A DNA stretch of 64,000 bases from Phycisphaeraceae bacterium (GTDB lineage: Bacteria; Planctomycetota; Phycisphaerae; Phycisphaerales; Phycisphaeraceae), in contig JAFIFY010000184.1 in NCBI GenBank assembly GCA_020831765.1, forward strand, positions 1 to 64,000, given 5' to 3'. The position numbers and the translations under genes were made by a program. Position 1 is the stretch's first letter, and the number at the start of each line of letters is the position of its first letter. The notes beneath the pieces were generated by a model that saw only the letters and a list, made by a program, of their open reading frames with translations, had not been told where the DNA came from and ran no database searches. Shown one piece after another: positions 18,848 through 22,943 of this stretch.

Positions 18848-20278
18848 TCAGGTGGCGCTGAACATTCGAAGCTGGTGCGGCTCGAGGCTGAGCTTGTTGA
18901 CCGGGCGATCCACATCCAGGCGATACTTGCCGCTGAAGCAGGCATGGCAGTAGTGCTCCGGAGGATGGGAAACACAGGAAAGCAGGCCCTCAAGCGAAAG
19001 GTAGGCAAGGCTGTCTACGCCCAGGAATTCACGGATTTCCTCAACGCTGCGACGGTGGGCGATGAGTTTTTCGCGGTCGGGAAAGTCGATGCCGAAAAAA
19101 CAAGGATGGCGGATGGGTGGGCAACTGATCCGCAGATGGATTTCCAGGGCGCCGGCGCGTCGCAGTTGGTTCATCTTGCCGCGCGTGGTGGTGCCGCGGA
19201 CGATGGAATCATCCACCACGACAAGCCGCCTGTCCCTCACGATGTCACCAATCACGTTGAGCTTGAGCTGAACCGCCGCATCCCGCTGGCCCTGGGTCGG
19301 CTGGATGAACGTCCGGCCCACATAGCGATTGGGCACGATGCCCTCACGATAGGGGATGCCGCTTCCCTGCGAGTAGCCAAGCGCGGCCGACCGGCCCGAG
19401 TCGGGCATCGGGACGACGAAATCGGCATCCACCGGTGACTCTTCAGCCAGCTTTCGACCCAGTTGCTCGCGGACCAGTTGGACATTGTCGCCAAAGACCA
19501 CCGAACTGGGATTGGCGAAGTAGATGTGCTCGAAGATGCAGTGGGTGGGCTGTTCGGCGGTGGCGAACCGGCGGGAGGCCAGCCCTGAATCGCTGAGGGT
19601 CACGATCTCCCCCGGCTCGACTTCCCGGATCAGGGTCGCGCCGATGCTGTCCAGCGCCACGCTTTCACTGGCCACGCAGTAACTCCCGTCGGACAGGCGG
19701 CCGATGACCAGTGGTCGCCAGCCCCAGGGGTCACGAACCGCCTCAATGCGATCGCGGAACAGAAACACCAGGCTGTAAGCGCCCTGGAGGTGCTGGAGGC
19801 ATTCAACCAACGGATCGGACTTGCGGGTGAAGTGCGCCGCCAAAAGGTGGATAATCACTTCGGTGTCGGTCGTTGACTGGAAAATGTGCCCTTGATCCTC
19901 GTAAGCGTGTCTGAGCAGGGCGGCATTGATCAGATTGCCATTGTGGCCCACCGCCACCTGCCCGCCACAGAACGTTCGCAGCAGGGGCTGGGCGTTGGAT
20001 GACTGACTCGACCCGGTTGTGGAATATCGGACATGGCCGATGGCACCGCGGCCGCGCAGTCCTTCAAGCACGCGGCTGGAAAACACCTCCGAAACCAGCC
20101 CCATGCCCGCATGGGCATGCAGTTGCTCGCCATCGCTGACACTGATACCGGCCGATTCCTGCCCACGGTGCTGCTGGGCATAAAGCGCGTTGTATGTCAG
20201 GTGGGCCGAATCCGGCGTCCCCCAGATTCCGAAAACACCGCACTTGTCTTTTTTTTCCTGCACGCCTGCGACATCCAT
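18848..20278 (-). CDS. Amidophosphoribosyltransferase
   Basis: This 476-residue PurF catalyses the first step of purine synthesis: PRPP plus glutamine to phosphoribosylamine. The catalytic nucleophile is Cys13 (KCGVFGIWG), so a 12-residue propeptide must be removed, as in the Bacillus-type enzyme. The Ntn-glutaminase domain (AQQHRGQESAG, HVRYSTTG, GHNGNL) is followed by a PRTase domain with VVVDDSIVRGTT. C-terminal cysteines (YCHACFSGKY, with others upstream) suggest a [4Fe-4S] cluster. AAGG lies 7 bases before the ATG. It follows the Gfo/Idh gene on the same strand. Confidence 0.95.
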   Translation of the reverse strand: MDVAGVQEKKDKCGVFGIWGTPDSAHLTYNALYAQQHRGQESAGISVSDGEQLHAHAGMGLVSEVFSSRVLEGLRGRGAIGHVRYSTTGSSQSSNAQPLLRTFCGGQVAVGHNGNLINAALLRHAYEDQGHIFQSTTDTEVIIHLLAAHFTRKSDPLVECLQHLQGAYSLVFLFRDRIEAVRDPWGWRPLVIGRLSDGSYCVASESVALDSIGATLIREVEPGEIVTLSDSGLASRRFATAEQPTHCIFEHIYFANPSSVVFGDNVQLVREQLGRKLAEESPVDADFVVPMPDSGRSAALGYSQGSGIPYREGIVPNRYVGRTFIQPTQGQRDAAVQLKLNVIGDIVRDRRLVVVDDSIVRGTTTRGKMNQLRRAGALEIHLRISCPPIRHPCFFGIDFPDREKLIAHRRSVEEIREFLGVDSLAYLSLEGLLSCVSHPPEHYCHACFSGKYRLDVDRPVNKLSLEPHQLRMFSAT

Positions 20279-22738: not shown

Positions 22739-22861
22739 GATTTACCTTGGAATAACCAGTCAGGGCATGGGCTCAATGCACGATGCCAACCATTTGGCCG
22801 GCCTTCCCTGATCGCGACCCGAGCATTCAGGCGGCGGCGTCAGCGCCAACCCATGGAGAAA

Positions 22862-22943
22862 GGTCGCGGTGGGATTCGAACCCACGATGGCTTACGCCAG
22901 CGGATTTGCAATCCGCCCCATTAGTCCACTCTGGCACGCGACC
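22862..22943 (-). tRNA. tRNA-Cys (GCA) with long variable arm
   Basis: The gene is 82 bases long. The acceptor stem is 7 bp (22943-22937 with 22868-22862), the D stem 3 bp, the anticodon stem 5 bp with loop TTGCAAA and anticodon GCA (22909-22907), and the T arm 5 bp with TTCGAAT. The base after the acceptor is U (22861), the cysteine discriminator, and CCA is not encoded. The variable region is 14 bases (22899-22886) with a TGGC/GCCA stem and GTAA loop. This class II layout, with its 3-bp D stem, is usual for Ser or Leu rather than Cys. Confidence 0.9.

Follow-up and report, generated by a model that had tools for sequence, protein, structure and literature searches.

In the textbook scheme the class of a tRNA, set by its variable (V) arm, is fixed by the amino acid, class II tRNAs being those for serine, leucine and, in bacteria, tyrosine. 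A long V arm combined with cysteine identity elements has been described in the selC* tRNA-Cys (Mukai 2017, reviewed in PMC7609411), a minor extra isoacceptor with an 8/4, tRNA-Sec-like body and long D and anticodon stems, which in some groups is accompanied by SelB* or CysRS* (PMC7609411). The published cysteine determinants are U73 and the GCA anticodon, plus G15-G48 in E. coli (PMC9976931), and SerRS relies on the long arm and G73 (PMC7609411). The phylum studied here is absent from the selC* list in that review (PMC7609411), and we found no published description of a long-arm tRNA-Cys in Planctomycetes in the open-licence literature, an absence that does not amount to proof.

Here we analyse a tRNA-Cys gene in a 64,000-nt stretch of DNA (the window) from a Phycisphaeraceae bacterium (GCA_020831765.1, contig JAFIFY010000184.1). 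It looks like a functional tRNA-Cys, and its class II form, for which we found no documentation, is spread widely but unevenly through one order. Whereas selC* is an 8/4 minor isoacceptor (PMC7609411), this tRNA has a 7/5 body and is the only tRNA-Cys of its host.

The tRNA-Cys gene and its fold

ARAGORN called a tRNA-Cys(GCA) of 83 nt at exactly 22861-22943 (-), and the Rfam tRNA model (RF00005) scored the same interval with 56.4 bits. All pairs are formed in the acceptor (7/7), anticodon (5/5) and T (5/5) stems, giving a canonical 7/5 body, and the D stem consists of C10-G25, C11-G24 and A12-U23, with G13 unpaired opposite A22 (Table 1). The 14-nt V region, UGGC-GUAA-GCCA-UC, contains a 3-bp core stem with a closing U-A pair, and this stem is present in the minimum-energy fold (z -2.8). 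With a covarying stem in a V region longer than the 10 nt taken as the lower bound for class II, the tRNA belongs to that class, and GCA and U73 mark it as a tRNA-Cys. An earlier note on this DNA had described a long-arm tRNA-Cys at this position, with GCA, U73, a 14-base arm and a 3-bp D stem, and ARAGORN, Rfam and the fold all agree with that description; the objection that the note had raised against its own reading, a better fold with a short V loop, did not emerge from free-energy folding.

Table 1. Features of the tRNA-Cys gene, in window coordinates
Feature	Position	Strand	Basis
tRNA-Cys(GCA) gene, long V arm, without encoded CCA	22861..22943	(-)	ARAGORN, RF00005, genome tRNA census
Acceptor stem 5' strand GGTCGCG (G1-C72)	22937..22943	(-)	sequence
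Acceptor stem 3' strand CGCGACC	22862..22868	(-)	sequence
Discriminator U73, Cys determinant	22861..22861	(-)	U in 107/107 order tRNA-Cys
G9, co-varies with G13	22935..22935	(-)	tRNA-Cys comparison
D stem 5' strand CCA (10-12)	22932..22934	(-)	sequence
G13, faces A22	22931..22931	(-)	54/57 long-arm, 17/50 short-arm tRNA-Cys
A22	22921..22921	(-)	sequence
D stem 3' strand TGG (23-25)	22918..22920	(-)	sequence
Anticodon arm GCGGA-TTGCAAA-TCCGC	22900..22916	(-)	sequence
Anticodon GCA	22907..22909	(-)	ARAGORN, sequence
Long variable arm TGGCGTAAGCCATC	22886..22899	(-)	covariation, fold, sequence
V stem 5' strand TGGC	22896..22899	(-)	covariation
V loop GTAA (GNRA type)	22892..22895	(-)	V-arm comparison
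V stem 3' strand GCCA	22888..22891	(-)	covariation
T arm GTGGG-TTCGAAT-CCCAC	22869..22885	(-)	sequence

The assembly of the host comprises 193 contigs (4.71 Mb) and is 98.4% complete, and its 47 tRNAs serve all 20 amino acids. The window gene is the single tRNA-Cys in this census; a normal class I tRNA-Cys, for which the earlier note had proposed to look, does not occur elsewhere in the genome.

Compared with canonical class I tRNA-Cys, the window tRNA has the same GCA, U73, G1-C72, 7/5 body and 3-bp D stem with a 13-22 mismatch, and the genomic locus is shared in relatives; the class I form differs in its 5-nt V loop and, mostly, in an A9/A13 core. Among class II tRNAs the nearest is tRNA-Tyr, which in this order also has a 14-nt V arm with a 3-bp stem and a 4-nt loop, U44 and C48, whereas the window tRNA is set apart from class II tRNAs by GCA, by U73 in place of A73 (Tyr, Leu) or G73 (Ser), and by an arm shorter than the Ser arms. 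A tRNA-Ser identity was rejected on U73 instead of G73 and on the 14-nt arm, compared with 18-21 nt in the four tRNA-Ser, and a tRNA-Tyr identity on U73 instead of A73, on GCA instead of GUA and on the presence of a separate tRNA-Tyr in the genome.

Conservation and covariation of the variable arm

The V regions of related tRNA-Cys genes (59 regions, 40 of them distinct, 12-18 nt) gave a mean stem score of 9.9, against 6.9 +/- 0.28 in shuffles (more than 10 SD), so these stem-loops are not a product of chance. A GNRA-type loop sequence (GUAA, GAAA or GCAA) is present in 42/59 long arms. None of the three inner pairs is broken in any of the 22 distinct 14-nt arms, and together these pairs have accumulated 19 double-sided changes (9, 3 and 7 compensatory double changes per pair), whereas shuffles had a mean of 4.0 and none of 500 reached as many. 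The covariation score was 0.725, whereas shuffles gave 0.187 and slid registers 0.11 or less. Judged from these sequence comparisons, the V arm of the order's tRNA-Cys is a real stem under selection.

A divergent arm, TGTGCGAAAGCCAACC/ATC, was observed at L094 and at the class II loci of genus g48 (G288, G697, G739 and G742). It retains just a 2-bp GC-GAAA-GC core with mismatches, as in a degenerate or shifted V stem, and is possibly an intermediate toward loss.

Distribution of the long and short forms

Relatives were found by pattern scans, with class told by match length, and the full-length parsed set from the window's order comprises 57 long-arm and 50 short-arm tRNA-Cys, with V regions of 12-18 nt and 5 nt, respectively. 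By family, f1 has 31 long and 10 short, f2 24 long and 21 short, f4 one long and 14 short, f120 one long, f3 four short and f5 one short. The forms are patchy in three families and mixed within two genera: g11 has five long genomes and one short (G270), and g5 one short (G675) among long genomes. Since the relatives' genomes are mostly drafts, a mixture of strains could underlie some of the class I calls.

Apart from G060, no genome among the matches listed has both forms as chromosomal genes. In G060 an extra long-arm tRNA-Cys (L146 1490-1574) lies in an array of at least 11 tRNAs, beside a class I tRNA-Cys, and this array may be mobile or degenerate. At L131 (about 1455-1940, G337:C15) we observed that the 3' end of the neighbouring tRNA-Pro is partially repeated three times in tandem, every copy having its own hairpin-rich leader, an arrangement that resembles the repeated attachment-site scars of an integrating element.

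Outside the order, the pattern scan found long-arm tRNA-Cys of this kind in 0/292 sampled genomes of the same class. The earlier note had allowed that a long arm might be standard and documented for the phylum, and this applies in part: it is common in the order but absent from those 292 genomes, and we found no documentation of it. In the phylum scan, the GCA long-arm tRNAs examined outside the order were all tRNA-Sec-like. Four genes from other families of the phylum (L126 1490-1583, L128 637-730, L129 1469-1558 and L130 1490-1579) carry GCA and U73 on a tRNA-Sec-like body, L128 and L130 exceeding the Rfam tRNA-Sec cut-off, and look like selC*-type tRNA-Cys. A wider contig scan, with a narrow pattern that excluded the order's T loop, gave 18 matches, about four of them in or near tRNA-like sequence, so similar tRNAs look rare elsewhere, within the reach of so narrow a pattern. 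An Actinomycetota MAG also has, within a tRNA array, a long-arm tRNA-Cys-like gene (L235 1116-1201) with GCA, U73 and an 18-nt V region; this gene was missed by ARAGORN and scored 52.6 bits in Rfam.

Exchange of the two forms at one locus

Long-arm and short-arm tRNA-Cys share a common body: U73, G1-C72, G15 and C48 are present in 57/57 long and 50/50 short genes, so that, where E. coli has G15-G48, the order has G15 and C48, invariant in both forms along with U73 and GCA. The 3-bp D stem, which the earlier note had counted among the serine-like features, is also found in the short-arm tRNA-Cys of the order; it is therefore a lineage norm and not serine-like. Within one genus, G270 (class I) and G255 (class II) have tRNA-Cys genes that differ by a single base outside the V region. 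G270 also has both flanks in common with its class II genus-mates G003, G013 and G032, so the form changed in place there; this conservation concerns the locus of these long-arm relatives and not the window's own. The patchiness, the mixture inside genera and the flanks common to long and short genes of one genus together indicate that the arm was gained or lost in place, repeatedly. A CysRS tree of 49 genomes, which may differ from the species tree and in which G655 is placed oddly, requires at least six changes of V form and rejects the long-arm genomes as one clade (p-AU 8e-10).

The two forms also differ in their core. G9/G13 opposite A22 is found in 54/57 long-arm and 17/50 short-arm tRNA-Cys (Fisher p 1e-11, with relatedness ignored), whereas A9 and A13 opposite A22 occur in the class outside the order and in most short-arm members inside it. 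A phylogeny-aware test of this association had four independent pairs, of which 2.3 on average agreed and none disagreed, and was not significant. Three long-arm tRNA-Cys retain A9/A13, which means that a long arm can exist without the core change. G13-A22 is common in class II tRNAs, and the 13-22 pair of a class I tRNA normally makes an additional contact with base 46 of the V loop, for which reason a switch to G9/G13 may free the V loop to grow.

In our reading the V region has toggled in place, several times within the order, between a short (5-nt) and a long (12-18-nt) state, apparently without any change in what the gene encodes, and a change of the core from A9/A13-A22 to G9/G13-A22 probably permits the long form. 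That the sole tRNA-Cys of the order underwent three or more independent in-place switches between classes I and II, enabled by the G9/G13-A22 core and with CysRS unchanged, is a proposal that we regard as evenly poised. A long arm ancestral to the order, with many later losses instead of several gains, would account for its presence in f1, f2, f4 and f120, for the short genes of G270 (g11) and G675 (g5), which look like losses inside long-arm genera, and for the G9/G13 core retained by some class I genes. We consider it unlikely, as class I, in most cases with an A9/A13 core, is the form of the f3 and f5 samples and of 14/15 examined f4 genes, and the long form is missing from all 292 genomes sampled elsewhere in the class.

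Origin of the arm

The earlier note had read the gene as a tRNA-Cys built on a tRNA-Ser scaffold. A tRNA-Ser gene recruited to Cys codons by anticodon change, with a risk of serine at those codons, would explain the long V arm, and GCA is one or two changes away from the Ser anticodons GCU and GGA. This origin is nevertheless very improbable: the body is near-identical to that of the relatives' class I tRNA-Cys, the flanks are conserved with class I genes, the discriminator is U73, the similarity of the V arm to the genome's tRNA-Ser arms is 0.26-0.33, and cysteine is needed at the UGY codons of PurF and CysRS. The long V arm, GCA and U73 are likewise those of selC* tRNA-Cys (PMC7609411), and such tRNAs appear to occur in other families of the phylum, but derivation from tRNA-Sec, with an elongation factor or synthetase of its own, can be practically dismissed, given the 7/5 body and 3-bp D stem instead of an 8/4 body with a 5-6-bp D stem, the score of 40.8 bits as tRNA-Sec (below cut-off) against 56.4 as tRNA, the status of sole tRNA-Cys and the ordinary CysRS.

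It is somewhat more conceivable, if still doubtful, that tRNA-Tyr was the donor of the V arm, through a partial gene conversion that used the near-identical flanks TGYAAATCYGC...GGTTCGAATCC and was followed by divergence. The Cys V arms share the 14-nt pattern T-GGC-NNNN-GCC-NNC with the tRNA-Tyr of the order, G688 has a Cys arm, TGGCGAAAGCCTTC, that recurs unchanged as the Tyr arm of G107, and the window Cys arm has a similarity of 0.79 to the tRNA-Tyr arm of its genome, compared with 0.26-0.33 for Ser. However, the Tyr arm of G688 itself differs, many Cys arms have unrelated stems, and Cys arms are about as similar to the Tyr arm of their own genome (0.565) as to those of other genomes (0.557), so a recent conversion from tRNA-Tyr is unsupported.

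Charging and identity

The host has one full-length CysRS gene (Pfam PF01406), with the C-terminal region aligned and KMSK present, which matches solved CysRS structures including E. coli 1LI5/1U0B. No column of the CysRS alignment separates long-arm from short-arm genomes (best |J| 0.58), and the changed synthetase envisaged in the earlier note thus finds no counterpart in this ordinary enzyme. A candidate second CysRS (L296 about 2300-2687, G000:C153) was set aside as a near-identical 5' piece at a contig end, probably a strain variant. SerRS is single and above cut-off. The SepRS route was not detected, the best sepS match reaching 28.6 bits against a cut-off of 380.65; no tRNA-Sec was found by anticodon in the host genome, and the sole match to the tRNA-Sec model above its cut-off is a tRNA-Ser(UGA) gene.

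UGC/UGU codons stand at residues where established enzyme chemistry demands cysteine: in PurF (window 18848-20278) these are the nucleophile at the N-terminus (KCGVFG) and the Cys cluster, and in CysRS the residues of the zinc site, encoded by UGC. The sole tRNA-Cys should therefore deliver cysteine in practice. Entry of serine at Cys codons, about which the earlier note had warned, accordingly appears unlikely from the codons and from the tRNA itself, with U73 rather than G73 and a 3-5-bp arm compared with Ser arms of 18-21 nt.

We propose that a class I tRNA-Cys body gained a 14-nt stem-loop in its variable region. An ordinary CysRS, which reads the acceptor end together with U73 and the GCA anticodon, would charge this tRNA with cysteine only, so that the arm should leave identity unchanged. 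SerRS, TyrRS and LeuRS would be kept off by the wrong discriminator base, SerRS because of U73 and also of the shorter arm, TyrRS and LeuRS because of U73, both enzymes using A73. Very probably, then, the window gene encodes the functional, sole Cys tRNA, a class I body with a gained 14-nt stem-loop, whose arm is largely identity-neutral.

Implications

Cysteine is here a fourth amino acid with a class II sole tRNA, in at least half of the sampled members of two families, with class I in close relatives. What is new is not ambiguous decoding but that the only tRNA for an amino acid has repeatedly changed class in place. For annotators and tRNA engineers this is a warning against reading Ser, Leu, Tyr or Sec identity from a long V arm alone. 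The long/short pairs are matched natural variants for testing the V arm in discrimination by CysRS, SerRS and TyrRS, as well as in EF-Tu binding and decoding, and can test whether the 9/13:22 core change lets the V loop grow. If true, repeated conversion between class I and class II would be a natural experiment on what fixes tRNA class.
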